Of a DNA stretch of 64,000 bases, positions 34,443 through 63,776 are shown piece after piece (positions within the stretch are counted from its first letter, which is position 1; each line of letters begins with the position of its first letter). The DNA comes from Branchiostoma floridae (lineage: Eukaryota; Chordata; Leptocardii; Amphioxiformes; Branchiostomatidae): the NCBI RefSeq assembly GCF_000003815.2, contig NC_049982.1, positions 7,793,849 to 7,857,848 of the forward strand. The letters run 5' to 3'. The position numbers and the translations under genes are program-made. A model generated the notes under the pieces. That model was given only the letters and a program-made list of their open reading frames with translations. It was not told the DNA's origin and made no database searches.

Positions 34443-37400
34443 CTAGTCACCGGTGCAGTCCCTACAGAGAAGAACAAAAATGATTTGTTGTTAAGTGCAT
34501 CAGTGAATGTGCAGTGAAAATCTTTTTTCAATGAATTTACTGGCACATTGTGTCGTGTTGTTCATCTTGTAGTGAGCCAAAGGTCAGCAGGTTTCCTTGC
34601 TGTTTCCGTTTCAGGGTATTCAGAAAGGGTTGCTTGCCCCTCCTCGAACACGGACAGTATTTCATGTCTTTTCGAGAGACGTTTGTAGCCCAAGATGCCC
34701 TTCTCCGAATTAATTCAAAACCGTCTTAATGGAAGTCACACGGAAAGAAGAGAAGACTTCAATAGTGTACTTACTGTCCCAAGACCTCCACCCGCATACT
34801 GAGGTGAGAGTTCCATGCCTGTGGCCAGAACCGGACGTAACGTGCAGTTACCGGCGGCTCCAACAGGTGGCGCACTTCGGTGTCTCGATCAGAGTTGCCA
34901 GAGAAAACCTGGGATGATATTTTGAAGAAAAAAAACAATGGAGCCGGCTAGCAGCAATGCTACATGGAAACAGATGGTAAAATCTTGCAGTAACACATAA
35001 ATGATTTATTAGGCTAAGGGACCGTACGGCGTTTAGTGAGGGGGGAGGGCCGGTCGCCAGAGGGTCGGGTCAAAAAATTTTTGCATGGCCCTCCCCCCAG
35101 GTAAATATTTTTTTGCTAGGCCCTCCCCCCAAGACAAAATATTTTTGCTTGGCCCTCCCCCCTCCTATCAACTTTGAAAAAAAAATTCAAGACGCCAATA
35201 AAACACTGCGCTCCCGCATTCGGAAATGTCCTTTGCGTCATACTTTAAAGTGGCCTCATTAAGTAGTCAGCAAAATTTATTGGAAACATAAAAAAATCCT
35301 TGGAAATATCAAACTTGTGCAGAAGACAATGGTTACCGACCCTATCACGTCCCAGGTTATCCAGGTATGTAGACCATGTGATTCCGTCTCTGCTGAAGCG
35401 TAGTTTGTAGGAGGTCACCCACTGATCTGCACCAGCTCTACCCTGGGTGATAACTCCAGCTACAGTAGTCTCTGCTCCCACGTCAACCTGAACAGGAAAA
35501 ACACTGAGAAACGCCAGCGGTACAAAATGCCTGCGGTGTTGAATATGTCGTACATAGTTGCATGATTTAAGTGTGATTGGTCAACCATGAAACTTGAATT
35601 GGAGAATGTCCATGCTGACATTTGAACCCTTCTCTTCTACTTTTTTATGTTAAAAAAACACAAAGGGAACACAAATAATTAGAAAATGCTAAAATAAAAT
35701 AGATAACTGCGTGACTGCGTCAACAAATATCAAGCAAGTGGCTGTTACGCCTGGGAGGGAGCGAGCAAGCGAGCACTGGATAGAGGAAAGTGGCGGGATG
35801 GTGCCAGATGAATTTGCTGTGAAGAGGAGGAGGAGAAGGGTGTGCTGGTACTTGTATTTAATATGAGGATGAGGATGCAAAAACATGCCAGAAGATGTGG
35901 ATGACACAGGACAAAAATGACTTGATATGATATGATATGATAAAAAGATATAATCTACACCCTGCAGCCTCTACTTACCTGTAACCACTGCTGGTTGTTG
36001 TTCTGTGCAGCACACCAGGCTCCGGCGCCCTCCTGGGAATGAAGGCGAGCTTTGCTGGTGGCACAACTGCCAGTATTGTACTGACTGGATGCAGTGATGT
36101 GGCCATCAGGAATAGCGCCGCTCTCCATACCTAGTGGTACTGCAGTGCACGGCTTCTATATAAAGGATGACATATGCATGTTACCGTACCCATTATCCTT
36201 TGCCCATACTGTACAAAGTTGTCCAAAGTTAAGCTGGATGTAAATTTACGGCTTCCTAAAAATGTTCGCCTGAAGTTCGATAGCACAAGAACACATCACG
36301 GTATTCTGCAAAAATAACTACAGAACACACGCTACCTGTGGGCAGGATTGTCCTCCACACCCTCCACATCCGCCAAATGGACCGGGAGGCCCGGGTGGCC
36401 CGGGAGCACCATCACGGCCGTCCCGCCCGTCTCGTCCGGCCGGTCCTTCAGGGCCCCGGAAGAGGCCTGTAACAGTTGAAGTGATCGTGAACAGTTAATG
36501 TCATTGCCAGCTCGGATAGAAATGCGGTTAAGTTAGTCATCAGAAAAAGTACAGGTACAGCCACCGGGTAAAAGACATTTTGGCATTTATCCAATATAGA
36601 ACGTACCATAAACAAATAAATGCCAGGCAGGACACCAAACGATCGAAAGCCCCTTCGACTGGGGAATTAAAAGTTATGCTAGCGCTATACTAGAGTTGGG
36701 CCTAGACCTAAAGAGGTGACCTGTGAAGACCCTGGAAAACAGTCCGGCATTCATGATTCACAAATATCAGTCAGAAATCTATTTCTATGTGACTTTGACG
36801 CAAATAAAGCAAAGGTTAGACAAATACTTTAGAACTTAACGACGTGGAAAATTAATACTAAAAGAGAAAATATCACAATAGGACAATATTACAACAACAA
36901 ACACAATCCTCTCTATTTCACGCGCATTTACGTTAAGTCAAACAAAACTCAGCTAACAGACATACCGGCAGGTGTCGTGACGGAGTTGTCGGAGCGCCTG
37001 TACCTCCGCAAGGTGGCGTTGTGTTCAGGGACACTGTCAGCTTGGTTCGGCCTCTCGTCCTTAGATATAAAGAAAGTTACATTTATGAAAGTTATACATG
37101 CAGCTAGTAAGATAAGTAAAGTTCATTCAAGACACTGACGGAAGGTAGCGAATGCTACCTGAGACGTCTGACCGTTTCCAAATTTTATCCAGTTGCTTGA
37201 TCATTAGTAACTGTTACCTTGCATAGGATGAAGTTGGTTTAGCTTAGATATTTTTGATAACACGGTGACTCCATTGACGCATTATTGTTATAGGGTTGGG
37301 ACAGGAACATATTCACCCTTTATTGAACTTAGAGCCATGTACGTACGCTAAGAATTTTCTCCGGTGCTATAGGAACATGAGCAAGCTACTGTTAAAATAT

Positions 37401-37819
37401 CATACCTCTCGAAAGTTCCCAAAGCTGTGTTCCTCAGCATGCCCGAGTTGGAACTTGGTCTCCAACACAGCCAGCCGCTCCCTCAAAGATGCGCCGTCAG
37501 CTTTCTCCTGCTGTAACTCCGTCTTCAGAGACGACAGTTGGATTTTCAGGGCCGTCACTTCCTGGTTGTCTTTGGCAGCGGTGTCTTGTTTGATCTCCAT
37601 GGCCAAGGTACGATCCTTCAGCGTCAGGATCTGGTCTTTCAGTTGAGCGGAGTTTTCACGGACATGCTTTTCCTCATGAAAGAGGAGGACGAGGGCCGCC
37701 ACCACCAGCACCCCCGCCCCCACCGCCACGGCCACCGTCACCATTCGGGCCGCGCCGGGTCGGTCTCGGCGGGCCCGGCCGGCAGCTTCGACAACGTATG
37801 CAGCCTTCTCCGAGCTCAT
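34443..37819 (-). CDS. Array gene A: type II membrane collagen-like protein with F5/8C head
   Basis: Seven exons in agreeing phase give 371 residues: 37406-37819, 36966-37059, 36336-36466, 35979-36155, 35341-35487, 34775-34908, 34443-34461. The start MSSEK is conserved in all array genes with a visible first exon. Order: basic cytoplasmic tail ([12 protein letters not shown]), one TM segment at about residues 27-50, a coiled coil to about residue 138, and a linker with an N-glycosylation site (NAT) and the RRYRR furin-like motif. A Gly-X-Y run ([20 protein letters not shown]) follows, then a Cys-bearing neck (GGCGGCGG). The F5/8C domain begins [20 protein letters not shown]; its closing cysteine lies on the 19-nt last exon (DCTGD). 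F5/8C domains bind glycans, lipids or collagen; ligand unknown here. Trimerisation and shedding are inferred. Exons 1-2 are D-type while exons 4-7 are discoidin-type. Confidence 0.85.
35035..35165. repeat. Short tandem repeat with GGCCCTCCCCCC units
   Basis: About three roughly 40-bp units of poly-T plus GC(A/T)xGGCCCTCCCCCC lie in the intron between the last two large exons of gene A. The opposite strand is G-rich. No gene. Confidence 0.65.
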
Positions 37820-39785
37820 TATCAGCTTGTAGCGAGAACAGACTGACAAACTAAGGAAAAATCTATAACGTTACTTTCTGTTACCCGAGAGCACTTCCAC
37901 CCTTCAACATTCGCGACTTGGAATAAGAAGTAAGAAAAAATACCCTGTAGGAAGAATGCGTACTACAGCAACATCACAGGGTACAGAAGCATTGATTGGT
38001 TGAAGTGTACATGTACAGGCGAGGTGTCATTTCCCATGGCCAATGCTAGTTGGTAAACAGCACCGTCTTTGTTCAGACCAACGTTCCATGCCAATAGTCC
38101 GAAAGGAAGGAACGAGGAAATTTGGTGTCAAGTTTTTTTCCCCGAAACAAAGCGAGACAAGGGCTTGTTTTATAAAGAGCTGGTGTAGTCGCTCTCACGG
38201 TCATTAACCCCAACTTATAGGACAACTTGAATTCACAGTAATTTTTAAGTACGAACATGAATGTTTTTGTATTGTTCATTATCATTATCTTCAATTTGCC
38301 CAAGGTTTTGACCCCCAAAACACATTTCATTTCATTGACTACCACATGTGAAGCAATATTGGCCCAGTCAAGAGTCAAGAAGTAGTGAAAGAAGCTCATA
38401 TCTCATCCCATTCTGACTACCTGCTCGTTTCAAAGATTTAATTTGGTATGAGTTGGATAAGTTGAATCGTGTGCCCTGACGTGACGTAGCCGAACTGTAA
38501 TCTCCAAGAAGATCTACTGTGGGAGGTGGGAAGTACCCATTGGCCGAAACAACCTCCATTTCCCACCGGGATTGTCTGTGAACTTCTGTGGCTGACACAA
38601 AGTTGTCCTATAAGTCGGGGTTAACGACCGTAAGAGCGACCACACCAGCTCTTTACAAAACAAGCCCTTGTCTCACTTTGTTTCGCGGAAAAGAAAACTT
38701 GACACCGAATTTCCTCGTTCCTTGCTGTCGGACTATTGGCATGGAACGTTCGTCTGAACAAAGACACTGCTGTTTATTAACTGCTGCCGTATGCACAGGT
38801 GGCTTTGAACATTGGGCTGCTCCTGCCTGCTCTGGGGCCCGAAAAAACACGAGGAACAAGTTGAACGTTCTTGATGGAAAGTGAGATGGTGCGCAGATGG
38901 AACCCATAACTACAGAACATGTAGTCACATTTGAAAAACGATGGTGACAGGTAGAGTCACAGTTGGATTTCTGGAATGCCTTTCACTAAGTCAAATACAC
39001 AGCAGTTTATAGCAAGATGACATCAGTTGGTGAACGTCGTTGCATGGAGATGTCACGTTATCGATGTCACAAGCTACAAAAACATTGATGGGGGAGGGGG
39101 CGCTGGGGTCAGGTGTATCTTACACCTGTACTCCCGCAGTCATTTTAAGGTGTACAGAAATATGTTACAATACAAGAGTCCATATGTATGTGGAACAATC
39201 TGCTTTATTTCTGGCTATAAATGCCTGATAGGTTCTGAGTGCACAAATGAAGTAGCTGCATCTTGTATTTTATCATCTCCTTGCTTGCAAACATTAGTCA
39301 AAATTTCTCCACGACTAAAGGCAGTGTAGTAACAAAGGACAGCAACACCAGCATAGAAAAACAAGGAATGTAGTCATTCTTCTTTACATCATGAAGCCAT
39401 TGACATTTTCATCAAGCACTACACAATACACGTCGGCTACAATATAAAAGTGTAATGCTGTAATCATTAGGACATTGTATTAATATAAAATAGGCTGAAC
39501 ATTGTTGTCACAAGCTTTAAATGGGTAATAACCCTAAATACGTAAAGTAACTCTTTAATAGTGGAGCCATGACTCATGAGATACATGTACTGTTTCTGAA
39601 CCCACCTAGGCCACCTCAAATAACTGCAAACACCAAGCCAAACAAACATACGCAAAATAATATCACTATTGTTACTGAGATGATAATCAAAGGTGATAAC
39701 AATTTTAAGAAAACACTTCATGTTCATGTGTATCCTGTTATGTGCAAATCTGTGCTTTGGAAATCTCCAAGTCTGCATGCTGCGT
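37820..39785. other. Spacer between array genes A and B
   Basis: The left part is the gene A 5' flank, similar to the flank of gene D near 50.1-50.5 kb. The middle is a large inverted duplication (38054-38228 with 38600-38776). The right part is the 3'UTR of gene B, including a copy of the end of the SFT2D3 3'UTR from about 39135 to 39300. No coding exon seen. Confidence 0.6.
38054..38776. repeat. Large inverted repeat, about 175-bp arms, 371-bp spacer
   Basis: The left arm 38054-38228 is the near reverse complement of 38600-38776. Shared words include GTTCCATGCCAATAGTCCGA and CTTATAGGACAACTT. Direct relatives of the left arm occur at about 50380-50545 and about 50795-50935, upstream of gene D. 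A transcript across it could fold into a long hairpin. Confidence 0.85.
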
Positions 39786-41371
39786 CTAGTCACCGGTGCA
39801 ATCCCTACAGGGAAGAACAAGCATGATTTGTTGTTATCAAAATGATTTGTTGTTATGCACATTAGAGAATGCACAGTGAATAACTTTTTTTCAATGCCTG
39901 TACTGGCACATTGTGTCGTGTTGCTCATCTTGTAGTGCCTAGTGACCCATAGGTCAGGAAGTTTCCTTGCTGTTTCTGTAGCAGGGTATCGAAGGGGTTG
40001 CTTGCACCTCCTCGAACATGGACAGTATTTCATGTCTTGACGTACGCGTGTGTAGCCAAAGATGCCCTTCCCCGGATTAATTCAAAACCACCTTAAGGGA
40101 CGTCACACGGAAAGAACAGAAGACTTAAAAAGTGTACTTACTGCCCCAAGACCTCCACCCGCATGCTGATCCAAGAACTCCATGCCTGAGGCCAGAACCG
40201 GACGTAACGTGCAGTTACCAGTGGGTCCAACAGGTGGCGCACTTCGGTGTCTTGATCAGAGTTGCCAGAGAAAACCTGGGAATGTGAAAAAGACAATGAA
40301 CTACCTACCAGCAATGCTACATACGACATATAAGCAGATGGTGAAATCAAATCTTTGCTGTAACACATGAATGATTTCTTAGAGTAAACAAGAACACGTG
40401 CCTCTACATTCCCTGAAATACAAGAAAAATCTGGGAATATCATGTATGACAGTTCATATTGACTATGGTAAAATCTTAATTTACATCAGCCCTACAGCAT
40501 GGGCTATGGCTAAACAGTCCTACTCGAGAATGACAGTCTCTATTACGCTGCATCAGTCACATCTGTAAGCTGACTCAGGTCAAAACTAATTTTCTGCGGA
40601 CGTGGACAAGTCAGCAAAATTTCTTGGAAACATAAAAAAAATCCTTTGAAATATCAAACTGGGGCAGAAGACAATGATTTATAATACCAACCTTGTCACG
40701 TCCCAGTTTGTCCAGGTATGTAGACCACGTGCTTCCGTCTCTGCTGAAGCGTAGTTTGTAGGAGGTCACCCACTGACCTCCAGCAGCTCTGCCCTGAGTG
40801 ATAACTCCAGCTACAGTAGTCTCTGCTCCCACGTCAACCTGAACAGGAGGAAAACGGCATCCTGGTACGTTATTCAGGGTACCTATTCTACTTTTGTACA
40901 TGTACATATTCTACATTTGCGTTAAGATTTCACCCAATATATCAACAACGTAAGTTACGTAACCAGGTCTCACGTACATTCACAATGTCTGGTTAGATAT
41001 TCCGGAATATGGTGATGGCCGTTGTCTTCCAATAGCTCGTGATTTATTGTATCTTACAAAAACTATATCAGACTGTTGTTCAAACATAAACAGAAAATGC
41101 GACAGTACATAGCAACATACAATCAATGGCAGCAAAAAAGAAAGAAACTGGTCAGAAGATGTTAACCGGGGGATGAAAAATAATTTGACGAAAGGAACCA
41201 AAGAATATAACTACAGTCAAACATATGAATCAAGGGCACAATTACAAAGCAAGTTGCACCGTCCGGTGGTCTCTTACCTGTAGCCACTGGTTGGTGTTCA
41301 GCGGGTTAGCACACCAGGCTCCGGCCCATCCTCCCTGGCTTGTTTGACTGTCCTCCCGGGAATGAAGACGA

Positions 41372-41552
41372 GCTTTACGGCCGCGTGGCGCGTTGGTCAC
41401 CCGATCCCTCGATCTCGGAAGTTAAGCAACGCGACGGTCCGGACAGTGCTTGGATGGGGGACCAACCAAGGACGTCCGGATTGCTGTAGCCTCACGAAGT
41501 TTCCACGAAATCGTCTTCCGGGAGGGACGTAAAACGGGGGTCCCGTGCTCGA
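41372..41552 (+). mobile_element. 5S rRNA-derived SINE-like insertion
   Basis: The first roughly 121 bp follow 5S rRNA: ACGGCC near the start, CGATCTCGGAAGTTAAGCA (box A region), GTGCTTGGATGGGGGACC (box C region), and an ending of TTGCTGTAGC. About 60 bp follow with GGGAGGGACGT and GGTCCCGTGCTCGA, which resembles conserved 3' domains of metazoan 5S/tRNA-headed SINEs. Substitutions in the 5S part make a functional 5S gene unlikely. Comparison with gene C (53545-53721) shows that about 90 bp of exon were lost at the insertion. Confidence 0.8.
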
Positions 41553-42822
41553 CGATTGATACATACAGGGTGTGACACATGTATTCACTGGTGGTAAAGG
41601 TCATGTCATTCAATATCCATTGCCCCATACGGTCCATTTCCCATTGCCCAAGACCCCAATACAACAGCTATACATGTCTCTGTTATGGCGGACTGTTTAA
41701 CAAAGGTGACTAGCGAACACTATGTCTCAGTTAGCGAACACTATGTCTAAAGCTTGCCTATGTCTAAGTTCCACGTAGGTTGATTTAAGTTTACTGATTA
41801 TCTCGATTCCAAATAAAATGTTCGCCTCAAGCTGAAGCTCATTAGCACAAGAACAGTCACATTGCTATATGACAATAACTTTAGTGCTGTACGCACCAGG
41901 CAGGATTGTCCTCCACACCCTCCACATCCACCAGCCGGACCGGGGGGCCCGGGAGGACCAGGCGGCCCGGGAACACCATCACGGCCGTCCCGTCCGTCTC
42001 GTCCGGCCGGGCCTTCAGGACCCCGGAAGGGACCTGTGCAGATGCAGTGAGGAAGAAACAGAAATGGGTTATAGTGATAACAAAAACCTTACTTAACAAA
42101 AAACCATGATCAGTAAATGCACTATCTTATACTAGTAGCCTTAATTTTCTCGTGTCAGACGAGATGGAATAACATTAAGGACAATTTCCACTCTGGCACT
42201 ATTGACAATGACAATGAAGTTTATTGACTATTCTAGTCAACTTTCTCGCGAAAATGGAACAGACGGGTGACCATTAAAAGTTACCTGTGAAGTAACCACC
42301 GATCAACGTCTATTTATTCCTGGTGCATTAAAAAACCATATGAATTAATGTCTGCCTACCTAAGCCGTAGGGTGTTGTGACAGTGTTGGCCGCTCTCTTA
42401 GACCGCCGCATGGGGGCGCTGTGATCTCTAAGCTTGACGTCATCACCGACTTGACTGGGTTTCACATCGGGGTCAGTCTCCTGTTGTAAAATGTTCAAAA
42501 TTTTACTCCGCATCCGCACTTCTCGGTTCCATGAAGCACAGTGTAGTTACGCCATTCTACTTTCTCCGTGTTGTTCCCGACTCCATCACGCGTTATTTTG
42601 TTAAGTCTCTGGAATCAAGTTTTGCTCCTTTACCCCTCCCTAATATAATTGATATAATTCGACATGTCTAAGTCAGCCTTGCCACTCATGCTTATAACTG
42701 TATAAATGTACCACACATATCATCATGATGCTACTTTCCGATAGTTTATGCAAAGCAAGCTCCCATATTATTCCACATCATCACCGCACACATCAACACT
42801 GTTTACTGCGTAGAGTTAAGTA

Positions 42823-43745
42823 CGAGGGTGAGTCAGAAAGTAATGCAAGTGGTTTCATAACAGACTCATTTTTTAATCAATTGAGTTGAAATTCGGCACA
42901 AAGGTAGAGGCATATGTCCTCTTGAGATTGAAATTTTTCAATTTGTTCTTTATTACTTAATGAGCAACTGAGTTGATTTCAAGTTGACCACACCTATAGA
43001 AGCTTGTCAGACAATCAGTCTCCTAAATCAGACCAACTTCAAATTACTGTAGGAGATTGAAATTACACATGTATTATAACAAATGTCTCTGTAGGTTGCA
43101 CGCAAATTTTCATTTCTGAACTCTCAATGGTTCTTCATTTACAACTGCTAGAATGGTGTAAATTGAGATACAGAGCTGTTTGATTTATACACGAATTCGT
43201 GAGTTGTCGGTTAAAAGACTACTTTTCCATTAACCGAAAGAAACGAAACTTTACACTGTTATTAACTGTTTCAAGGGCAAGAAGTGTGCCAAGTTTTATT
43301 TGTCTTAGTTAATGGAAAAGTAGGCTACAGAAACTTTTAATCATAACACAAAAAATCTCATGACCCTGACGACTGCGTATACCTCACTCTACACCAGCAA
43401 CGAAAAAAGAAAAACTGATCGGATTTCAGAGTTGAAAATAAGCGTATGGCTTATGGAGAAATGCAGCTTATTAAATGTCCAGGTTCAGTCTCCTACGATA
43501 GCAAAAATTGGTTTAGGAAAATTCTTAATTGTACGTTAATTGGACCTCACTTTTCTTCTGACGGGCTTCCTAGGGTATGGTCAACTTGAAATTAGCTCAG
43601 TCACTCATAAGATAATGAACAGCAAATTTAGATATTTTAATCTCATGAGGACATATTTCTCTACCTTTAAGACAAATTTTAACTTATTCGATCAAAAAAC
43701 TAGTCTGTTATGAAACCACTTGCATTACTTTCTGACTCACCCTCG
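42823..43745. mobile_element. 923-bp mariner-type foldback element, copy 1
   Basis: TA duplications (42821-42822, 43746-43747) flank 44-bp perfect inverted ends starting CGAGGGTGAGTCAGAAAGT. The homologous site in gene C (about 54835) lacks the element and has a single TA. Weaker pairing continues inward for most of the length, so the whole element can fold back. No transposase ORF. The second copy is at 47643-48565. Confidence 0.9.
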
Positions 43746-44677
43746 TAGAAAAACCAGATCTGTTGAGTTTTTGCCCAAGGCAGGTTACCTGTCATGAGTT
43801 GTGGGTGACCCAACGTGCCCAATTATCCGTGGTGTTCATGTGCATGATATATGAATTTATATAGTCAGAACTTATTGTTGTTTTCGATAAGATATGAGAC
43901 GATTGCAGTTCTGAACCTAACGCTATCACATAGCTTCCCTGGTGATGGTGAAATTTAGCGTAAAGTGAGGGAGAAGTTAATGTAAGCTTAAGCTTTACAA
44001 GTTTATTGGAGGCTGACACAGACATATCCAAAACGCGAGATTATACCGTTGTAGCTTAAATCTGGTATATTTAACACAATAAACTGACCTGAATATGAAA
44101 AGACTGAAGAACTGTTAACTATAACTCACTATGATGTGATGTTGTCAACAGGGAGGTATCGAAGCACTGAGAAGAATCTATGCTCCCCTCTTACCTCATG
44201 AGAGGTTCTGTAGGTTGGTTCTTGTTCATTTCCGAATTCGAGTTGGAACTTGGTTTCCAACACAGCTAGCCGCTCCCTCACAGACGCCCCGTCAGCTTTC
44301 TCTTGCTGCAACTCTGTCTTGAGAGACGACACCTCAGCACGTTCGCTGTCTAGTTGAGTCCTCAGAGACGACAGTTGGATTTTCAGGGCCGACACTTCCT
44401 CCTTGTCTCCAGTAGCGACGTTTTGCTTGATCTCCATGGCCAAGGTACGATCCTTCAGCGCCAGGATCTGGTCATTTGCCTTCGCTAGTTGATCTTGCAG
44501 TTGACTTGCGTTCTCTCGCACATGCTTGACCTCGTGAGCGAGGAAGACGAGGGCTGCCACTACCAGCACCCCCGCCCCGGCCGCCACGGCCACCGTCACC
44601 GGTCGGGCCGCGCCGGGTCGGTCTCGGCGGGCCCGACCGGTAACTTCGCTTACGTTAAGCAGCTTCTCTGAGCTCAT

Positions 44678-46235: not shown

Positions 46236-49200
46236 CTAGCGAATGCGACAGCAACAGTAGTTTGGTCCGCAGATGTTTGCCGTAAAGGCACAGCCACCGC
46301 TGAGATAGCGAAATGCTGCAGGGCCAACTTTTCCAGCGTCAGTGTTGTGGTCGGATGAAAGGACAGGCCGATTCCCGTACACGTGTATGGCATCAAAGCA
46401 CTCTGTGGTGCTGTGGAAAAGAAATCATCATCAGCAAATCATGATACTATATATCATATAGTGGCTAAATGCTCACACATACGCCCGCACGAGCGAGCGC
46501 GCGCACACACACACACACACGCACACACACACATGCATACACATAAATATTGCATATATAGACATATGTCTATATATATATATATAGAGAGAGAGAGAGT
46601 CAGACAGTGACAGAGAGAGAGAGAGAGAGAGAGAGAGACTAAAGGAGATATAGATACATGTAAAGTGTCCTACAGTTAGATACAGTATTTGTCATAAACT
46701 AGAATTTGCGCACAAAGCCACACCGAATTAACACAACAGTAATAATTCTGGTGACAGAGAACCAGAAATTTATAACCCCAAAAAAACTGTACCATTCAGC
46801 AAAAACGTTTGATATACAACTCATTTCGTGCACAAAAGGACTGGTGCATTCAAAGATTCAAATTTTTAGAGGAAAGAATCAATGTCTGATGATATGGTCG
46901 TTTTGTAATTGAAAAAATAAACATTTCGACATTCAATGACAACATTATAGCACAAACCTCTTCCGGCTGCCGACAGCTGCTATCATGGCCGCTTTGCGGG
47001 AGGTGCACATGTCGTTGCACGTCAGACCGTCCCCGTAATTAGGTCTGCAGTCCCGACGGATGGCGAAGATGTCTGATGCTTGGTCGGTGACCGCTGTACA
47101 GATGCTCTGTGCCAGCATATCACGGTAGTTGACGTAGTCTGTGCCTGATTGAGGAAACGTAGACAAAATGTAGGTACAAAAATGGACAGTATTCATTCAA
47201 TATTCATTCAAATTGTGGAATATCCCTTACCATGGCAAATTTAGACGGATACAACACATGTACTGGGCATGATTTTGACTACTAAGAGGACTACCTACTC
47301 CTAGCCTGTTTGCTACATGTGTACATCTATATCTGAGGTAATAACAAAGCAGCACAAATGTTGAAGTGTTGTGGTCACAAGCGCGGAACTTACTTGATCC
47401 ATTCACTCCAGGTGGTCCAGGCGGGCCCTCTGGTCCAGGAGGACCCTGGAAACATTTTTGATTAGCTGTAATTAATTTTCATTAATCAAAATCTCTACAT
47501 GTGCAAATATGTCAGATAGTACTGGTTGATTACGACAGTTGATGATGGCGATGCATGTGCTGTTCAAAGTTTGCAAAAACGTGACGCCAAAACTAACTAC
47601 AGAATTTTAGTCCCTCTTAAAAGCTGTTTTTTTGGCAATATACGAGGGTGAGTCAGAAAGTAATGCAAGTGGTTTCATAACAGACTCATTTTTTAATCAA
47701 TTGAGTTGAAATTCGGCACAAAGGTAGAGGCATATGTCCTCTTGAGATTGAAATTTTTCAATTTGTTCTTTATTACTTAATGAGCAACTGAGTTGATTTC
47801 AAGTTGACCACACCTATAGAAGCTTGTCAGACAATCAGTCTCCTAAATCAGACCAACTTCAAATTACTGTAGGAGATTGAAATTACACATGTATTATAAC
47901 AAATGTCTCTGTAGGTTGCACGCAAATTTTCATTTCTGAACTCTCAATGGTTCTTCATTTACAACTGCTAGAATGGTGTAAATTGAGATACAGAGCTGTT
48001 TGATTTATACACGAATTCGTGAGTTGTCGGTTAAAAGACTACTTTTCCATTAACCGAAAGAAACGAAACTTTACACTGTTATTAACTGTTTCAAGGGCAA
48101 GAAGTGTGCCAAGTTTTATTTGTCTTAGTTAATGGAAAAGTAGGCTACAGAAACTTTTAATCATAACACAAAAACTCTCATGACCCTGACGACTGCGTAT
48201 ACCTCACTCTACACCAGCAACGAAAAAAGAAAAACTGATCGGATTTCAGAGTTGAAAATAAGCGTATGGCTTATGGAGAAATGCAGCTTATTAAATGTCC
48301 AGGTTCAGTCTCCTACGATAGCAAAAATTGGTTTAGGAAAATTCTTAATTGTACGTTAATTGGACCTCACTTTTCTTCTGACGGGCTTCCTAGGGTATGG
48401 TCAACTTGAAATTAGCTCAGTCACTCATAAGATAATGAACAGCAAATTTAGATATTTTAATCTCATGAGGACATATTTCTCTACCTTTAAGACAAATTTT
48501 AACTTATTCGATCAAAAAACTAGTCTGTTATGAAACCACTTGCATTACTTTCTGACTCACCCTCATATATTCAATTTTTGCTTCTTGGGTTTGGAAAGTA
48601 CAATGGCAACGGGTCACAATGATCATAAAACAACTCTGCCCAATGTTCAATAATACACAAACCTATAATTGAAATTATATTTTTTCACAGAACGCTTACA
48701 CAAAAATGTCCTACCTGTTCGCAAGACGGCTCCCCACACCCTCCACATCCGCACGGAGGCCCGGGCGGCCCGGGAACACCATCACGGCCGTCCCGTCCGT
48801 CTCGTCCGGCCGGTCCCTCAGGACCCTGAATGGGACCTGTGAAATTTGAATATCGATTTATATCTACACTGTTTATATCATTAGCGGCAAAATGATATTG
48901 GTGACAGTGCGTTTCCTGTCGCCACTTTTTAACAAAGTAAAGGTACGTACAGACACCTAAGGGGCTACGTCGACGAGCACTTTGGGATTTTAGAAAACGT
49001 AACATAAAACTTTTCCAATACTGCAATAGAAGACGTAACAACAGAACAACTATCGGTCAGTGAATTTGACACAAGACGTATTTCAAGTACTGACAGAGCA
49101 AGCTTCGGGTCTAAGAACACGAAAACTGTGAATAAGAATCGGAAAGGGACATAATAAGGAACGTTACATGAACATACACTTTCAAGTCCAGTCCCAACAA

Positions 49201-50103
49201 AGCGCCAAAAACCTTCATACCTGCAGGTGTCGTGACGGAGTTGTCGGATCGCCTGTACCTCCGCAAGGTGGCGTTGTGTTCAGGGACACTGTCAGCTTGG
49301 TTCGACTTCTCGCCCTTTATTAAAAAAAAGGTATTAGGTTTAGACTTTTTGTTTGTCTTGGCTCTTGAGTATTCCTAATTGCTATAACATATCAAGAAGG
49401 CAAGAAAACAGGAAACCAACGGCCTAAACATTTCCCGCAAACCACGTTACATCCGCTGTATGTTGATAGCATTTTAGACACACAAGAAGTGGAACAAAAA
49501 CTCTATTTTCAAAGTATAGACCCAACGCCGAGATGTTAATGCTAAGTAGCCAGTGTTGTTATAGGGTTGACTTGAACAGGAGCATTTTCACGGTTCATTG
49601 AACTTACAGCCATGCACTGTCAGATTTTTACTTCCGTGTTGTAGCAAGCTACTGACAAAAAATACCTCTCGAAAGTTGTGTTCCTCAGCATGCCCGAATT
49701 GGAACTTGGTTTCCAGCACAGCCAGTCTCTCCCTCAAAGACGCCCCGTAAGCTTTCTCCTGCTGTAACTCCGCCTTCAGAGACGACAGGTGGATTTTCAG
49801 GGCCATTATTTCCTCCTTGTGCGAGGACGCTTCTTCCTTGTCTCCAATAGTGGCGTCTTGCTGGATCTCCATGGCCAAGGTACGATCCTTCAGCGCCAGG
49901 ATCTGGTTTTTCAGTTGAGACACTTCTTGGGAGGACTTCTCACGGACATGCTTAACTTCGTGAGCGAGGAAGACGAGGGCCGCCACCACCAGCACCCCCG
50001 CCCCGGCCGCCACGGCCACCGTCACCGGTCGGGCCGCGCCGGGTCGGTCTCGGCGGGCCCGGCCGGTAACTTCGCTTACGTTAAGCAGCTTCTCCGAGCT
50101 CAT
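46236..50103 (-). CDS. Array gene D: type II membrane collagen-like protein with Cys-rich head
   Basis: Six exons in agreeing phase give 355 residues: 49666-50103, 49221-49314, 48715-48836, 47394-47445, 46958-47144, 46236-46410. The N-terminal half matches its neighbours: [18 protein letters not shown], one TM segment at about residues 27-50, then a coiled coil. A linker carries NAT and RRYRR, followed by the Gly-X-Y run with [11 protein letters not shown] second short collagen exon (GPPGPEGPPGPPGVNGS) precedes a head of about 120 residues with at least ten cysteines. Landmarks are [52 protein letters not shown], and a closing [11 protein letters not shown] before TAG. Junction phase fixes this frame for the last exon. 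I do not recognise the head; it may be a C-terminal domain shared by invertebrate collagen-like proteins. Secretion through furin cleavage is inferred. Confidence 0.8.
46501..46640. repeat. CA, TA and GA microsatellite cluster, intron of gene D
   Basis: Runs of CA, then TATA, then GAGA follow one another in the last intron of gene D. The matching intron of gene F has the same order at 62485-62610. Confidence 0.9.
47643..48565. mobile_element. 923-bp mariner-type foldback element, copy 2
   Basis: It has the same length as the copy at 42823-43745. By eye the two differ at only about two positions, one of them the terminal base of the right end. TA flanks are present at 47641-47642 and 48566-48567. 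It lies in the intron between the two collagen exons of gene D. No ORF. Confidence 0.9.
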
Positions 50104-52406: not shown

Positions 52407-55400
52407 CTAGTCACCGGTGCAGTCCCTACAGAGGAAAAACCCCAAAAAATGATTTGTTGTACAGTTGTACATCAGTTAATACGCAGTGAAAAATCATCAA
52501 ATGCCTATACTGGCACATTCTCTTGTGTGTTGTTCACCTTGTCATTGGTCATCAAGTTTCCTTCAACGGCTGTGTCTGTACCAGGGTTTATTTTTACAGG
52601 AAGGGGTTGCTTGCGCCTCGTCGAACAGTGGACTCCCATTTCAGAAAGACGGGTGCCGCCCCAACTGAGATGCCCTTCCCCGGATCTATTGAAAATCCCC
52701 TTATGTGAAGTCACATGGAAAGAGAAAACTCCAGTAGTATACTTACTGCCCCAAGACCTCCACCCGCATGCTGACGTGCTGATTCCATGTCTGCGGCCAG
52801 AACCTGACGTAACGTGCAGTTACCGGTGGGTCCAACAGGTGGCGCACTTCGGTGTCCTGATCAGAGTTGCCAGCGAAGATCTAGGATCAGGATGGTACAT
52901 GTATTGTGAACGAACAGCCTATCAGAAACACTGTGGATAAGAAGCAACGTTGTTGGAAGACATTATTTACATGATACACACAATTTCTAATACTGAATTA
53001 GAACAATTACAATATTTACTTTAGATTGAATGACTATTCATTCCTAGAGAGTGCGAGAGAAAACTTTATCAATTCTGTAACTTCTGTAATTGACTTGATT
53101 ATGTAAGACAATGGTTACCAACCCTCTCACGTCCCAGTTTATCCCGGTATGTAGACCACGTGCTTCCGTCTCTGCTGAAGCGTAGTTTGTAGGACGTCAC
53201 CCTTTGTGGATCAATGTTACTGAACCTACCCTGGGTGATAACTCCAGCTACAGTAGTCTCTGCTCCCACGTCAACCTGGACAGGAAAAACACGTAACACT
53301 GAGAAAAGTCAGCGGTACAAAACGCCTGCGGTGTTCAAAATGTCGTCCGTAGTTGCATGATTGTAAGTGTGATTGGTCAACTATGAACTTAAATTGAACA
53401 TTTGTCCACTAAATTGTCCATGCTGACATTTAGACCCATATCTTCTGGTTTCCTATGTTCTATATTATCTATTAAAAAATAAAGATTACACAAAAAATTT
53501 GATATGATAAAAAGTGTAATCTATACCCTGCAGACTCCACTTACCTGTAGCCACTGCTGGTTGTTGTTTTGTGCAGCGGCCCAGGCTCCGGCGCCCTCCT
53601 GGGAATGAAGGCGAGCTTTGCTGGCCTCATGACCTGGACTGTCCCACGTAGTGGATGCAGTAATGTGGCCATCAGGAATAGCGCCGCTCTCCATGCCTAG
53701 TGGTACTGCAGTGCACGATTGCTACATACAGGGTGTGACATTGGTGGTAGAGGTCATGTCATTCAATGTCCATTGATCCATACGGTGCAACATCCATTAC
53801 CATTGCCCAAGACCCCAATACAACAGCTACACATGTCTCTGTTATGGCGGACTGTTTAACAAAGGTTACTAGCGAACACTATGTCTCAGTTAGCGAACAC
53901 TATGTCTAAAGCTTGTCTACGTCTAAGTTCCACGTAGATTGATGTAATTTAAGTTTACGGATAATATCGATTCCAAATAAAATGTTCGCCTCAAGCTGAA
54001 GCTCATTAGCACAAGAACAGGTCACCTTGCTATATGACAATAACTTTAGTGCTGTACGCACCAGGCAGGATTGTCCTCCACACCCTCCACATCCACCAGC
54101 CGGCCCGGGAGGGCCCGGCGGCCCGGGAGCACCATCACGGCCGTCCCGCCCGTCTCGTCCGGCCGGCCCTTCAGGACCCCGAAAGGGACCTGTGCAGATG
54201 CAGTGAGGAAGAAGCAGAAATGGTTTATAGTGATAACAAAAACCTTACTTAACAAAAACTTGTAGCGTTAATTTTCTCGTGTCAGACGAGATGGAATAAC
54301 ATTTAGGACAATTTCCACTCTGGCACTAATGACAATGACAATGACGTTTCTTGACTATTGTAGTCAACTTCTTCGCAAAAATGGAACGGACAAGTGACTA
54401 TTAGAGGTTACCTGTGAAGTAACTACCGACCAACGTCCATTTACTCCTGTTGCATTAAAAAATTATATGAATTGATTATCTGTCCACCTAAGCCGTAGGG
54501 TGTTGTGATGGTGTTGGCAGCTCTCTTGGACCGCCGCATGGGGGCGCTGTGATCTCGAAGCTTGACGTCATCACCAACTTGACTCGGTTTCACATCGGGG
54601 TCAGTCTCCTGTTGTAAAATGTTCAAACTTTTACTCCGCATCTGGACTTATAGGTTCCATAAATCCTTGCCACTCATGCTTATGATTGTAACATTGTACA
54701 ATTACAAATATACCACACATATTTATATGATGATTGATGCTACTTTCAGACAGTTTATGCAAACCATCTCCTCTTTTATTCCACATCATCACCGCACACA
54801 TCAACACTGTTCACTGCGTACAGCGATCTAGAGTAGAAAAACCAGACACGTCGAGTGTTTGCCCGAGGCAGGTTAACCGGTTACCAGTCATGAGGTGTGG
54901 GTGACCCAACCTGCCCAATTATCCGTGGTGTTCATGTGCAGGATATATATAGTCAGAACGTATTGTTGTTTTTGGGAAACTATGAGACAATGGTAGTTCT
55001 GAACGCTATCACATTGCTTCCCTGGCGATGGTGAAATTTTACCGTAAAGTGAGGGAGAAGTTAATGTAAGCTTAAGCTTTACAAGTTGATTGGAGGCTGA
55101 CACAGACATATCCAAAACGTGAGATTGTACCATTGTATCTTAAATCTGGTATGTTTAATACCATAACCTACCTGAATATTAAAAGACTGAAGAACTTTTA
55201 ACTAAAGCTCACTATGATGTGATGTTGTCAACAGTGAGGCCGGTAGCTATGGTGTTATCGAAGCACTAAAGAGAATCTATGCTAACCCCTTACCTCGTGA
55301 GAGGTTCCGTAGGTTGGTTCTTGTTCATTTCCGAATCCTAGTTGGAACTTGGTTTCCAGCACTGCAAGTCTCTCCCTCAAAGACGCCTCGTCAGTTTTCT

Positions 55401-55776
55401 CTTGCTGCAACTCCGTCTTGAGAGACGACACCTCAGCACGTTCGCTGTCTAGTTGAGTCTGCAGAGACGACAGTCGGATTTTCAGGGCCGTCATTTCCTC
55501 CTTGTGCGAGGACACTTCCTCCTTGTCTCTCGCAGCGGTTTCTTGCTTGATCTCCATGGCCAAGGTACGATCCTTCAGCGCCAGGATCTGGTCTTTCAGT
55601 TGAGCGGAGTTTTCACGGACATGCTTAACTTCGTGAGTCAGGAAGACGAGGGCCGCCGCCACCAGCACCCCCGCCACGGCCGCCACGGCCACCGTCACCG
55701 GTCGGGCCGCGCCGGGTCGGTCTCGGCGGGCCCGGCCGGTAACTTCGCTTACGTTAAGCAGCTTCTCAGAACTCAT
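52407..55776 (-). CDS. Array gene C: type II membrane collagen-like protein with F5/8C head
   Basis: Seven exons in agreeing phase give 404 residues: 55294-55776, 54488-54608, 54062-54189, 53545-53721, 53123-53275, 52747-52880, 52407-52425. Order: [18 protein letters not shown] tail, one TM segment, a long coiled coil with the internal repeat [20 protein letters not shown], and a linker with [10 protein letters not shown] (furin-like). The Gly-X-Y run with [10 protein letters not shown] and a cysteine neck follow, then the F5/8C domain ([66 protein letters not shown]). The tiny last exon adds DCTGD and the closing cysteine. No break was found, so this is the best intact reference for the discoidin type. 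Pairing of terminal cysteines is expected from the family. Ligand unknown. Confidence 0.87.
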
Positions 55777-57588: not shown

Positions 57589-60500
57589 CTAGTCGACGGT
57601 GCAGTCCCTACAGAGAAGAACAAAAATGATTTGTTGTACATCAGTGAATGCGCATTGAATTTTTTTTCAATGCCTTTACTGACAGATTGTTTCGAGTTAT
57701 TCATCTTGTACTGCCTAGTGACATTTCCTTGCTGTTTCTGTAACTTTAGCAGGGTATTCATGAGGAGGTTGCTTGCACCTCCTCGCACAGACCGTATTTC
57801 ATGTGTTTTTGAAAGACAGGTGTAGCCCAAGATGCCCTTTCCCAGATTAATTCAGAACCGCGCTTTAAGGGAAGTCACACGGAAAGAACAAAAGACTCTA
57901 ATATTGGACTTACTGCCCCAGGACCTCCACCCGCATGCTGAGGTATGAATTCCATGTCTGCGGCCAGAACCGGACGTAACGTGCAGTAACCGGCGGGTCC
58001 AACAGGTGGCGCACTTCAGTGTCCTGATCAGAGTTGCCAGAGAAAACCTGGGATGGTATTGTGAAACAAACAATGAACCGGCTACCAGCAATGCTACATG
58101 GAAACACATATTGAAATAATTTCTTAGACTAAAGAAGAACATGTGCCTCTACATACCTTGAAATATAAGAGAAAACTCTATAAAATCTGGAAATATCACA
58201 TGACCTCTGTCTGTTCATATTGACTATGGTAAAGTCCAAATTAACATCGGCCCTACAGTATCGGCTATGGCTAAACATTCCTATACAGAATAACAGTCTC
58301 TGCTGCATCAGTTACATGTTTAATCTGGTCTCAAGTCTGTTCCAAACTTCTTTTTCTTCGAACGTGGCCTATTCAGCAAAAATTATTGGAAGCATTAAAA
58401 AAATCTTGTAAATATCAAACTTGTGCAGAAGACAATGATTACCAACCTTCTCACGCCCCAGATTGTCAAGATATGTAGACCACGTGCTTCCGTCTCTGCT
58501 GAAGCGTAGTTTGTAGGAGGTCACCCACTGATTTCCTCCAACATTTCTGCCCTGGGTGATAACTCCGGCTACAGTAGTCTCTGCTCCCACGTCAACCTGA
58601 ACAGGAGGAAAATGGCATCCTGGTACGTTATTCAGGGTACATATTCTACTTTTGCGTTTTTCATCCAATATGTTAACAAAGTAACCAGGTCTCATGTACA
58701 TTGTGTCTGGTCAGCAGGATATGATGTTGGCCGTTGTCTTCTTAGCTCGCGATTTATTGTATCTTATAAAAACTATATGAAACTGGGCTGATTTGAGCTT
58801 TCATGGATGAATAAAGGTTCAAACAAACAAAATCAAACAAACAAACTGTTTTTCAAACATAAACAGAAAATATGATAGTACATAACCACATACAATTAAT
58901 GTAAGAACGATAAAAAGGAAGAAACTGATCAGAAGATGATGACAGGGGGGAGAAAAATAATTGATGAAAAGAACCATAAAATATAACAGCACATTCCAGC
59001 ATATGTGATGTCATATGTGGCATATGAATCAAAGGCACAATTAAAAATGATTGGCAATAAAGCAAGTTTGCCATGCGATGTCCTCTCACCTGTAGCCACT
59101 GGTTGGTGTTCAGCGGGCCGTTGGCGCACCAAGCCCCGGCCCATCCACCTTGGTCTGTATAACCCTCCTCTTGGGAATGAAGACGAGCTTTGGTGGTGGC
59201 ACAATCCGGGTGTGTAGTGGATGCAGTAATGTGGCCATCAGGAATAGCGCCGTTCTCCATACCCAGTGGTACTGCAGTGCACAGCCGCTACGGGACAGTA
59301 ATTGTAAACGTCACAACGTCACCATTCCAAGCAGTACAATTTGGGCCAGAGCCTAACCTGATATGTAAAATTACGGTGGTTAGAGCAGTAAAAGATCACG
59401 CAAGGCGGAAAATGTCCAACCTGTCGGCAGGGTTGTCCTTCACACCCTCCACATCCGCAAGCCGGCCCGGGAGGACCAGGCGGCCCGGGAACACCATCAC
59501 GGCCGTCCCGCCCGTCTCGTCCGGCCGGTCCCTCAGGACCCCGGAAGGGACCTGCGGCTGTTGCAGTGAGGCTTACATTACTCTTTATTTTTACAAGAAA
59601 TACATGACCGCACAATGTACAAACTGCACGTTCATAGCGTAAATGGTGTAAGACGTGACCAATTTTCCAAGGACCGTGCAACTGGGAGAGTCCTGAAGGA
59701 GAGAAGCAAGGGGCCAGTCCCTGGCTTAAAAGCACTTCAATAGGCAGGTAGGCAGGCATTTCCCTCAGAATTCCACTCTGTCACCATTGCAGTCAAAAGA
59801 CAAGTGGCCCTTATTTTTTTTTAAAAGATTACTTGAGAAGTAAACACCGACCAACGTCTATTCATTCCTGGTGCGTTTAGATATCATAGGAAAGAATCCA
59901 TATCTGCCCACCTGAGCCGAAAGGTGTTGTGACAGTGTTGGCCGATCTCTTAGATCGCCGCATGGGGGCGCTGTGATCACCAAGCTTGACATCATCACCA
60001 ACTTGACTCGGTTTCACGTCTTGGCCAGTCCCCTGTTGTGAAATGCTCAAACTTTTACTCCGCAAATGTATATAACGTTAGTCAGAACGTATTGTTGTTT
60101 TCGAGAAAATATGAGACAATTGCAGTTCTGATCTATCACATTGCTTCCCTCGCGATGGTAAATTCTAGCGTAAAGTTGATTGGAGGCTGACACAGACATA
60201 TCCAAAACGTGAGATAATACCATTGTAGCTTAAATCTGGTATATTCAACACAATAAACTGGTCTGAATATAAAAAGACTGAAGAACTGTTAACTAAAGCT
60301 CACTATGATGTCATGCTGTACATGTTGTCAACAGTGAGGTATCGAAGCACTGAGAAGAATCTATGCTAACCCCTTACCTCATGAGATGTTACGTAGATTG
60401 GTTCTTGTTCATTTCCCAATCCGAGTTGGAACATGGTTTCCAGCACAGCCAGTCTCTCTCTCAAAGACGCCCCGTCAGCTTTCTCCCGCTGTAACTCCGC

Positions 60501-60848
60501 ACGTTCGCTGTCTAGTCGAGTCTTCAGAGACGACAGGTGGATTTTCAGGGCCGCCACTTCCTCCTTGTCTTTAGCGGCGGCGTCTTGCTTGATCTCAATG
60601 GCCAAGGTACGATCCCTCAGTGCCAGGATCTGGTCCTTCAGTTGAGACACTTCTTGGAAGCAGTCAGACACTTCTTGAGAGGAATTCTCTCGCACATATT
60701 TCACCTCGTGAGCGAGGAAGACGAGGGCCGCCACCACCAGCACCCCCGCCCCGGCCGCCACGGCCACCGTCACCGGTCGGGCCGCGGGTCGGTCTCGGCG
60801 GGCCCGGCCGGCAACTTCGCTTACGTTAAGCAGCCTTTCCGAGCTCAT
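57589..60848 (-). CDS. Array gene E: type II membrane collagen-like protein with F5/8C head
   Basis: Seven exons in agreeing phase give 407 residues: 60378-60848, 59912-60032, 59421-59551, 59090-59287, 58447-58596, 57914-58047, 57589-57607. Order: MSSERLLNVSEVAGRARR, a TM segment at about residues 27-50, a coiled coil with a repeated SSQEVSDCFQEVSQ part that adds one cysteine, and a linker with MRRSKRSANT (furin-like). The Gly-X-Y run with [10 protein letters not shown] ends in ACGCGGCEGQPC. The F5/8C domain begins [20 protein letters not shown]. Its first exon is 21 nt longer than in A and C, inserting residues before the GAWCANG segment, in a region of the fold that usually carries ligand-binding loops. 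The last exon gives DCTVD. All exons are open. It is the nearest relative of gene B by flanks. Confidence 0.86.
58786..58850. repeat. Dispersed GTTT-tailed repeat, copy 3 (reverse)
   Basis: This is the reverse-complement copy: GGGCTGATTTGAGCTTTCAT followed by AAAC repeats. It lies in an intron of array gene E, between the two larger discoidin exons. Confidence 0.6.
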
Positions 60849-62250: not shown

Positions 62251-62483
62251 CTAGCGAACGCGACAGCAACAGTAGTTTGGTCCGCAGATGTTAGCCGTAA
62301 AGGCACAGCCACCGCTGAGATAGCGAAATGCGGCAGGGCCAACTTTTCCAGCGTCAGTGTTGTGGTCGGATGAAAGGACAGGCCGACCTCCGTACACATA
62401 TATGGCATCAAAGCACTCTGAGGTGCTGTGGAAAAGAAATCATCATCAGCAAATCATGATACTATATATCATATAGTGGCTTA

Positions 62484-62524
<41 letters not shown>

Positions 62525-63776
62525 TGCACACACACAAATATTGCATATATAGACATATGTCTGTCTATATATATATATACATGTATATTTATATATATAG
62601 AGAGAGAGAGATGTACAGTGCCGTACAAATAGATACAGTATTTGTCAAAATTTGCGCACAAAGCCACACCGAATTATCTTAACACAACACACAAAAAAAC
62701 AGCAATAATTCTGGTGACGGAGAACCACGACTTTTTACAAAAAAATATTTTGCCATTCAACAAAGACGTTTGATAGCAAATTCATTTCGTGTGCAAAGGG
62801 ACTGGTGCATTCAAATATTCAAAGAGGAAAGAATCACTGTCTGCTGAACTCGTAGTTCTGTAATTGAAAAAAATAAACATTTCGACATTCAATGGCAATA
62901 ATGTAGCACAAACCTCCTCCGGCTGCCGACAGCTGCTATCATGGCCGCTTTGCGAGATGTGCACATGTCGTTGCACGTCAGACCGTCCCCGTAATTAGGT
63001 CTGCAGTCCCGACGGATGGCGAAGATGTCTGATGCTTGGTTGGAGGCCGCTGTGCAGATGCTCTGTGCCAGTACGTCATGGTAGTTGACGTAGTCTGTGC
63101 CTGATTTAAGAAACGTAGAGAAATGTAGAAGGTACAAAAAAAGACAGTATTCATTCAATATTCAGTGTGGCATATCCCTTACCATGGCAACTAAAGTCTT
63201 TAGACGGATACAACACATGTGCTGAACATGATTTTGACTGCTAAGAGGATCTAGGACTACCTACTCCGAGCCTGTTTGCTACATGTGTACACCTATATCT
63301 GAGGTAATAACAAAGCAGCACAAATGTTGAATTGTGTAGAGGCCATGATACTGTGTGCCAGAGAGCAGGACGTATACCTGGTCACAAGCGCGGAACTTAC
63401 TTGATCCGTTTGCTCCAGGTGGTCCAGGCGGGCCCTGTGCTCCAGGTGGGCCATCTAGTCCAGGCGAGCCCTGTGCTCCAGGCGAGCCCTGTGCTCCAGG
63501 CGGGCCATCTAGTCCAGGGGAGCCTTGTTCTCCAGGCGGGCCCTGTGGTCCAGGCGAGCCCTGTTCTCCAGGCGAGCCCTGTGCTCCAGGCGAGCCCTGT
63601 GCTCCAGGCGAGCCCTGTTCTCCAGGCGGGCCATCTAGTCCAGGGGAGCCTTGTTCTCCAGGCGGGCCCTGTTCTCCAGGCGGGCCCTGTTCTCCAGGCG
63701 GAGGGGGTGGTCCAGACGAGCCTTTTGGTCCAGGCGGCCCCTGTGGTCCAGGCGAGCCCTTTGGTCCAGGAGGTCC
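62251..63776 (-). CDS. Array gene F: Cys-rich-head collagen-like protein, 3' part (5' end outside window)
   Basis: Three exons are visible: 63401-63776 (collagen), 62914-63100 and 62251-62425 (head). The head matches gene D closely: [52 protein letters not shown], and a closing [11 protein letters not shown] before TAG. The collagen exon is 376 nt against 52 nt in gene D, with the same phase. It encodes about 41 Gly-X-Y triplets such as [12 protein letters not shown] and GPPGEQ, with one triplet lacking glycine (PPP). The TM and coiled-coil exons lie to the right of the window. A longer, glutamine- and serine-rich rod is expected to place the head further from the membrane. Confidence 0.8.
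62485..62610. repeat. CA, TA and GA microsatellite cluster, intron of gene F
   Basis: It has the same order of simple repeats as in the homologous gene D intron (46501-46640), with a longer CA run. Confidence 0.9.

Follow-up and report, generated by a model that had tools for sequence, protein, structure and literature searches.

A mosaic tandem array of predicted membrane collagens with two kinds of head in Branchiostoma floridae

The stretch of Branchiostoma floridae DNA analysed here (C4:7793849-7857848; 64,000 nucleotides, hereafter the window, in a genome of 513 Mb in 431 contigs) contains six genes for putative type II membrane collagens, all on the - strand, which end either in an F5/8C (discoidin) domain or in a cysteine-rich domain (Cys head). 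By coordinate they are ordered A, B, D, C, E and F, and they belong to a large array whose members are mosaics, their 5' and 3' histories being in conflict, whose modules have crossed between the two head classes, and whose F5/8C heads vary mainly in four loops. The explanation that we favour, and consider on the whole the probable one, is a germline-diversifying tandem family of shed, trimeric type II recognition collagens. An earlier note, written from the letters of the window, had described six same-strand genes with a shared plan and two interchangeable heads; using tblastn of the pieces it named and hand-made exon models, from which the window genes were built, we found every named part at the place given, all on the - strand.

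The array on contig C4

The annotation covered 334 kb, namely the window and 270 kb to its right, where positions are given as continued coordinates (window numbering extended rightward past the window end). We identified 45 units: F5/8C exons occur in 28 of them, Cys-head exons in 13 and neither kind in four, two weak collagen-like groups (units 7 and 33) having been dropped from the count. Stalk and head are both present, in the same order, in 37 of the 45 units, and no unit carries both kinds of head. Across the genome, 49 of 50 stalk matches are located on C4 between 7831272 and 8136494, - strand (six of these are second pieces of one exon, giving about 43 stalk places), the 50th being on C9 (29% identical, E=3e-4), and 42 of 45 matches to the collagen exon of the GRD kind fall within the array stretch (150 of 156 candidates scored). 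The window is, therefore, the left (3') end of one array of ~300 kb, at about 7.830-8.136 Mb on C4, all on one strand (-). The rightward extension that the earlier note had proposed thus yields 41 head-bearing units in 334 kb: six is correct for the window, with two of the six disrupted, but undercounts the array, which is far larger.

Intact spliced models were obtained for 26 of the 41 head-bearing units (18 F5/8C, eight Cys); units not counted as intact include unit 26 (19-base deletion in the collagen exon relative to unit 38), unit 36 (an additional base in its second Cys exon) and units 8, 9, 16, 20, 30 and 40, among others. In six places (44-45, 41-42, 34-35, 25-26, 14-15 and 11-12) the next unit downstream of a Cys unit is an F5/8C unit whose cleavage-site exon is of the RSKR kind described below, which suggests a duplicated two-gene block.

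Two simpler accounts of the array were rejected. Chance likeness of repeats does not produce the same order and strand in tens of units, and a single gene with alternative heads does not agree with units that are each self-contained, 37 of 45 having a stalk and one head kind, nor with a paralogue on C3 that repeats the Cys plan alone. The sole + strand match in the 334 kb, collagen-like, at 15986-16051 (29.3 bits), is weak and was discarded as spurious.

Membrane anchor, stalk, cleavage site and collagen

Each of the 26 intact models has a basic tail, one transmembrane (TM) segment, a stalk, an R-x-K/R-R site, a short collagen segment and one head; what is called the stalk exon encodes the tail and the TM segment along with the coiled-coil stretch. 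In all 26 there is one hydrophobic segment at ~residues 26-47 (start 26 or 27), a tail charge of +3 and no second TM-like segment, which makes the type II topology proposed in the earlier note likely. A coiled coil in the stalk, also proposed there, is likely as well, although not proven for gene D: in a crude heptad test, the number of shuffles as good as the real sequence, of 500, was 9 for A, 20 for E and 0 for unit 12, whereas it was 63 for D, which fails.

The furin-type motif R-x-K/R-R, likewise anticipated, is present in 36 of 36 RxxR exons, those of disrupted units included (24 RYRR and 12 RSKR). These exons are of two kinds, with little likeness beyond the site itself, and the RSKR kind occurs in none of the 11 Cys units that have an RxxR exon. 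The site lies between stalk and collagen, just N-terminal to the first collagen domain; in ectodysplasin, the furin site lies between stalk and collagen. We infer ectodomain shedding of the array proteins by analogy, because the MACIT collagens XIII, XXIII and XXV undergo furin-like cleavage at the corresponding position, directly ahead of the first collagen domain, and release from the membrane is known for ectodysplasin A and colmedins too, as described in passages of PMC7848082.

The collagen segment consists of 9-12 Gly-X-Y triplets, in one exon, in the 18 intact F5/8C members, and of 12-57 triplets, in two exons, in the eight intact Cys members. The collagen segment is present as the earlier note had it, but the Pfam Collagen model stays below its cut-off (27.2 bits) in both proteins scanned, D (19.7) and E (15.7), because the helix is short; the collagen call rests on the repeat itself. 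In units 22 and 36 (continued coordinates 203985 and 112121) the GRD collagen exon is fused to the second collagen exon, the intron between them being gone and the frame kept. In the hand-made D and E models, both types of head start in phase 0 after the GRD exon, so that a head swap at this point keeps the frame.

Mosaic genes and exchange between head classes

The array genes are mosaics. Among 22 F5/8C units, exon distance matrices correlate for the adjacent second and third head exons (r=0.65) and for the stalk and RxxR exons (0.59), and hardly so for exons farther apart, namely the collagen and first head exons (r=0.07) and the first and second head exons (0.14). A partner map, in which identity was followed in 250-base steps, introns included, over 16 chosen units, locates the changes: unit 12 is 99-100% identical to units 26 and 35 over the stalk and 99-100% to unit 38 from the RxxR exon onward; unit 35 has its stalk in common with units 12 and 26 and its head with unit 15; unit 26 switches to another partner at its second head exon; the likeness of gene C (unit 43) to unit 38, at 98-100%, is confined to the stalk; and unit 11 is 97-100% identical to gene D as far as the GRD exon and, beyond it, mostly 99-100% (one step at 90%) to units 25/34.

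Trees of 19 units show the same conflict. The 5' clade 12/26/35 (support 100/100) is rejected by the 3' data (log-likelihood difference 496, approximately unbiased test p 1e-31), and the 5' data in turn reject the 3' clades 12/38 and 15/35 (both 100/100; p about 5e-5), with log-likelihood differences of 205 and 44, as well as the 3' clade 5/13/26/31/39/46 (difference 336).

Modules have also crossed from one head class to the other. A tree was built from the RxxR exon, with 250 flanking bases at either end, for 22 RYRR-kind units. In it, unit 2 (F5/8C head; C4 about 8120202) is placed inside a branch whose other members are nine Cys-head units (100/100), whereas unit 14 (Cys head) groups with the F5/8C units 6, 32, 21 and 24 (100/100). 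The data reject a clade confined to the ten Cys units (p 1e-8), and adding unit 2 to these ten does not rescue it (p 0.0015), since unit 14 is misplaced. The stalk of unit 2 is 95% identical to the Cys units 36, 22 and 16 and 94%, with equal gaps, to the best F5/8C unit, so that the stalk alone is not decisive; its RxxR exon is 93% identical to that of unit 27 (Cys-type) versus 84% for the best F5/8C unit. The introns adjoining its stalk and RxxR exons group with Cys-head units as well. For its collagen exon and head the F5/8C type applies, and it is this combination that bears out the notion of interchangeable heads. In unit 14, the stalk, collagen and head are all Cys-type; therefore, only an inner tract was exchanged. 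The view that the family is evolving is thus supported more strongly, by mosaic exons and exchange across head classes, than it was in the earlier note.

Much of the array and of its mosaic pattern could have been made by the assembly, through mis-joined repeats or two haplotypes placed end to end. Lancelets have high heterozygosity, and the near-identical blocks, together with four runs of N in the 334 kb, are what such errors would leave. The key mosaics are, however, old: unit 2 is ~5-10% from its Cys-type relatives and unit 14 stands several percent away on its own branch, so that a recent mis-join cannot have made them. Since breakpoints also vary by unit, and frames are intact in 26 of the 41, we regard an artefact as highly improbable.

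Variable loops of the F5/8C head

The head of gene E (spliced protein of 407 residues), the only one of the F5/8C proteins scanned whole, matches PF00754 at residues 261-399 (E=2.4e-31; 108.9 bits, over the curated cut-off of 28.2), as expected for the F5/8C domain named in the earlier note. The closest PDB entries to these heads are factor VIII, neuropilin, factor V and lactadherin. In the F5/8C fold the usual disulphide joins N- and C-terminal cysteines, and the tiny last exon, which adds a cysteine and the stop, would complete it by analogy. F5/8C exons are many elsewhere in the genome (PF00754 search of the exons themselves rather than their neighbours, with 150 of 1088 candidates scored).

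Four loops hold the variation of this head. Among 24 heads, a set that includes the non-intact units 3, 17, 23, 37 and 40, mean column entropy is 1.24 bits in the loops versus 0.21 in the rest, and the loops account for 21 of the 25 most variable columns. The loops occur in 15, 15, 13 and 10 variants, forming 22 distinct combinations in the 24 heads. The nonsynonymous substitution rate (dN) is 0.414 in the loops versus 0.038 in the core, an 11-fold excess, and its ratio to the synonymous rate (dN/dS) is 0.88 (column bootstrap 0.60-1.36) versus 0.23 (0.14-0.33). The dN/dS sets exclude one of 26 first F5/8C exons (that of B, broken), five of 40 stalk exons (short or containing stops) and, among 12 second Cys exons, one that was too short. 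In HMMER alignments, loops 1, 3 and 4 correspond to stretches of factor VIII C2 which we take to be its membrane-binding, ligand-facing face, and loop 2 is inserted next to a further stretch of this kind.

This variation may reflect either diversification or relaxed constraint. In its extreme form, the latter would mean a decaying array, in which a burst of duplication left most copies non-functional. The 15 of 41 head-bearing units that are not intact, B and F among them, are as it would predict; the constrained core (0.23) and collagen exon (dN/dS of 0.24) speak against general decay, as does the R-x-K/R-R motif kept even in disrupted units, and we find such a decaying array very unlikely. 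The loop combinations could instead be polymorphic tags or receptors for self/non-self or gamete recognition. A combinatorial, recently recombined array, with blocks of 99-100% identity that include introns and nearly as many combinations as heads, would suit such a role, which we nevertheless consider rather improbable, since the stalk and collagen exons are varied too.

The Cys head

The head of gene D (spliced protein of 355 residues) consists of its C-terminal ~119 residues, encoded by two exons, with ten cysteines. The earlier note had left this head unrecognised, and it remains so: none of seven heads matched a Pfam or NCBIfam family, no PDB entry was found by sequence (the best profile match being insignificant, E=0.83), and no relative was found in prokaryote genome contigs. 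A bacterial or viral origin was rejected on this last result, from a scan that covered prokaryote genome contigs.

In the B. floridae genome we identified 33 matches, 25 in the array and eight elsewhere (on C3, C11, C7 and C4); those outside the array include matches on C11 and C7, at 18.63 Mb on C3 and at 10.03 Mb on C4. The best outside locus (L036, C3:28964000-28966500, - strand) seems to be a Cys-head membrane-collagen paralogue. Its open frames, from which it was read in place of a spliced model, encode in order a coiled-coil end (LRERIAALEIRV), a convertase site with GRD-type collagen, a second collagen exon and both head exons. The head keeps all ten cysteines and is 70% identical to that of gene D, and the convertase site is RAKR, neither RYRR nor RSKR, the motif being the same in a different surrounding sequence. 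As far as open frames indicate, the Cys-head plan thus exists outside the array.

Comparison with known families

Proteins of this general kind, with a type II membrane anchor, a short collagen and a globular head, are already known (MACITs, colmedins, ectodysplasin and class A scavenger receptors; passages of PMC7848082), and so are mosaic, clustered immune families such as SpTransformer (PMC8634487). The likeness in plan to MACITs and colmedins pointed out in the earlier note holds, and extends to ectodysplasin (PMC7848082, in part). MACITs (XIII, XXIII and XXV; Caenorhabditis elegans COL-99) have a type II TM segment, a coiled coil and a furin-type site before the collagen, and exist in membrane and shed forms (PMC7848082, in part). 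Of these features the array has a predicted type II TM segment in 26 of 26 models and the furin-type motif in 36 of 36 exons, and would share the coiled coil and the shed form. In MACITs, NC domains separate multiple collagen domains and a globular head is lacking; the array differs in having 9-57 triplets followed by a head, and in forming a large array. Colmedins (gliomedin, UNC-122) share the type II TM segment, the collagen and a globular C-terminal head, and are shed, but the head is an olfactomedin domain. Ectodysplasin A, whose ectodomain is released (PMC7848082, in part), shares the type II TM segment, the collagen and a compact head, but has a TNF head and is a single gene. Factor VIII, factor V, lactadherin, neuropilin and the discoidin-receptor group have, like the array, a plain F5/8C domain (PF00754) with N- and C-terminal cysteines.

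Pfam matches to olfactomedin, TNF, SRCR or C-type lectin heads were absent from D and E up to E=10. Since the head domains of colmedins, EDA and class A scavenger receptors were not matched in D or E, we rejected membership in these families, and the array family appears to be a variant outside them. Among the papers listed in searches of the open-access literature, which misses most subscription papers, we found no description of an F5/8C protein with a collagen stalk and a type II membrane anchor, nor of this Cys head on such a stalk, in agreement with the earlier note, which knew of no family of this architecture. What is new relative to that note is the furin-type motif in two dissimilar exon kinds, the mosaic genes, the loop-focused variation of the F5/8C head and the Cys head on another contig.

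Sea urchin SpTransformer (Sp185/333) resembles the array in having clustered copies of similar small genes with reassorted sequence modules, mosaic sequence shaped by recombination and attributed to diversification in an immune arms race (PMC8634487). It differs in being an unrelated protein, encoded by two-exon genes, for which pathogen binding was shown.

The resemblance to MACIT XIII/XXIII/XXV, gliomedin and ectodysplasin, which act in adhesion and in nerve or skin development (passages of PMC7848082), also fits a tandemly expanded adhesion family of the colmedin or MACIT type, with a developmental or structural role. Its F5/8C domain would bind a fixed host ligand, for instance a matrix or cell-surface partner, and the loop diversity, with dN/dS not above 1, would be drift that followed duplication. 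About 40 clustered copies, exon reassortment and the excess of loop dN are unusual for a fixed ligand, and we think this explanation unlikely, yet deserving of consideration.

A possible mode of action

The best reading of the array is a role in recognition, with immune recognition first among the options. For the recognition collagens that we favour, we propose that the N-terminal tail stays inside the cell and that the coiled-coil stalk gathers three chains and seeds a short collagen helix in the N-to-C direction. A furin-like convertase may then cut at R-x-K/R-R, between stalk and collagen, and release a soluble trimer with three F5/8C or three Cys heads, while uncut molecules would remain as surface receptors. 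Three weak F5/8C sites would give avidity; avidity from multiple weak sites is the principle of collectins and ficolins. Recombination and gene conversion among neighbouring copies would reassort stalk, RxxR/collagen and head exons and so yield new combinations of variable loops. The likeliest use would be multivalent surface recognition of microbial or self glycans or lipids by a lectin-like receptor, both surface-bound and shed, possibly in an immune or mucosal role.

Several points weigh against this reading. The loop columns were picked by eye, after the alignment was seen, and the loop dN/dS is not significantly >1, so that relaxed constraint is possible and we do not claim positive selection as proven. 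Loop dS is ~2.8 times core dS (0.470 versus 0.165), and poor alignment or old imported variation therefore contributes to the loop differences. Variation in the Cys-head exons is no more than moderate (dN/dS 0.78 and 0.48), which suits recognition less well. The clades tested were chosen after the exon matrices and the partner map, so the p values are not blind, although the differences are large. Splice phases were imposed when exon boundaries were chosen, and phase agreement beyond the hand-made D and E models is partly by construction. The heptad test failed in one of four proteins and, finally, the units without intact models are variously disrupted, incomplete or gapped, or run off the end of the annotated stretch.

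Genes and other features of the window

The window genes are given in Table 1. Four of the six (A, C, D and E) are intact, because a 5S-rRNA-like insert breaks the first F5/8C exon of B and a TAA interrupts the stalk exon of F. The limits of the region described in the earlier note, 34443 and 63776, are the stop of the last exon of gene A and the acceptor of the second collagen exon of gene F, whose first exons lie, as that note said, outside the window.

Table 1. Coordinates of the array genes in the window and of the insert in gene B.
Feature	Coordinates	Strand	Remarks
Gene A	34443..37819	-	Intact, F5/8C head
Gene A, 5' exons	stalk 37819-37406; RxxR 37059-36966; GRD collagen 36466-36336	-	RYRR
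Gene A, head exons	F5/8C 36155-35979, 35487-35341, 34908-34775; last 34461-34443	-	Last exon DCTGD, stop
Gene B	39786 (approximate)..44677	-	Disrupted, F5/8C head
Gene B, 5' exons	stalk 44677-44195; RxxR 42480-42360; collagen 42033-41897	-	RSKR
Gene B, head exons	F5/8C remnant about 41376-41278, 40838-40692, 40275-40142; last from 39804	-	First F5/8C exon broken
5S-rRNA-like insert	41373..41492	+	Rfam RF00001, 41.8 bits, E=5.4e-7; in first F5/8C exon of gene B
Gene D	46236..50103	-	Intact, Cys head
Gene D, 5' exons	stalk 50103-49666; RxxR 49314-49221; GRD collagen 48836-48715; second collagen 47445-47394	-	RYRR
Gene D, Cys-head exons	47144-46958, 46410-46236	-
Gene C (unit 43)	52407..55776	-	Intact, F5/8C head
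Gene C, 5' exons	stalk 55776-55294; RxxR 54608-54488; collagen 54189-54062	-	RSKR
Gene C, head exons	F5/8C 53721-53545, 53275-53123, 52880-52747; last from 52425	-
Gene E	57589..60848	-	Intact, F5/8C head
Gene E, 5' exons	stalk 60848-60379; RxxR 60032-59913; collagen 59551-59422	-	RSKR
Gene E, head exons	F5/8C 59287-59091, 58596-58448, 58047-57915; last 57607-57589	-	Last exon DCTVD, stop
Gene F, 3' part	62251..63776	-	Cys head
Gene F, exons in window	second collagen 63776-63401; Cys head 63100-62914, 62425-62251	-	Long second collagen
Gene F, 5' exons	65403-64068 (continued coordinates; stalk start 65403)	-	Right of window; premature TAA in stalk exon

The 5S-rRNA-like insert is antisense to gene B and seems to be a recent SINE-like (short interspersed nuclear element) or pseudogene insertion. 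An intron of B (about 42820-43750) and an intron of D (about 47640-48565) contain the same element of about 0.9 kb, 100% identical over three 250-base steps, whose ends, by eye, carry the same stretch inverted; it looks like a recently moved DNA transposon. On the 5' side of gene A, the open frames show related stretches at about 38070-38210 and 38620-38770, in opposite orientation. To the left of the array there are SAM-domain exons at window positions 708-1121 (+; PF00536, E=8e-6) and 4215-4661 (+; PF07647, E=8e-10), which we presume to belong to a liprin-like gene, and a WD40-like exon at 18295-18633 (-; PF00400, E=1.9e-5, below the PF00400 cut-off).

Implications

More tentatively, and with clear reservations, we suggest that the array could be a germline combinatorial library of shed collagen lectins in a chordate, in which stalk, cleavage, collagen and head exons are shuffled in one array, copies and haplotypes differ in which ligand-facing loops they carry, and a single stalk bears heads of two unrelated types. 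If this is true, it would represent an exon-shuffled invertebrate counterpart of collectins and ficolins, with one undescribed head, the Cys domain, and would bear on how animals without rearranging antigen receptors diversify recognition. It raises the questions of whether exon reassortment alters binding, whether the sets of individuals differ and why one cleavable stalk serves two unrelated heads; with the parts in one locus, together with natural recombinants, these are directly testable. The array brings two further head types to the type II membrane collagens, together with a ten-cysteine domain that has no match in the libraries searched (Pfam, NCBIfam and PDB).

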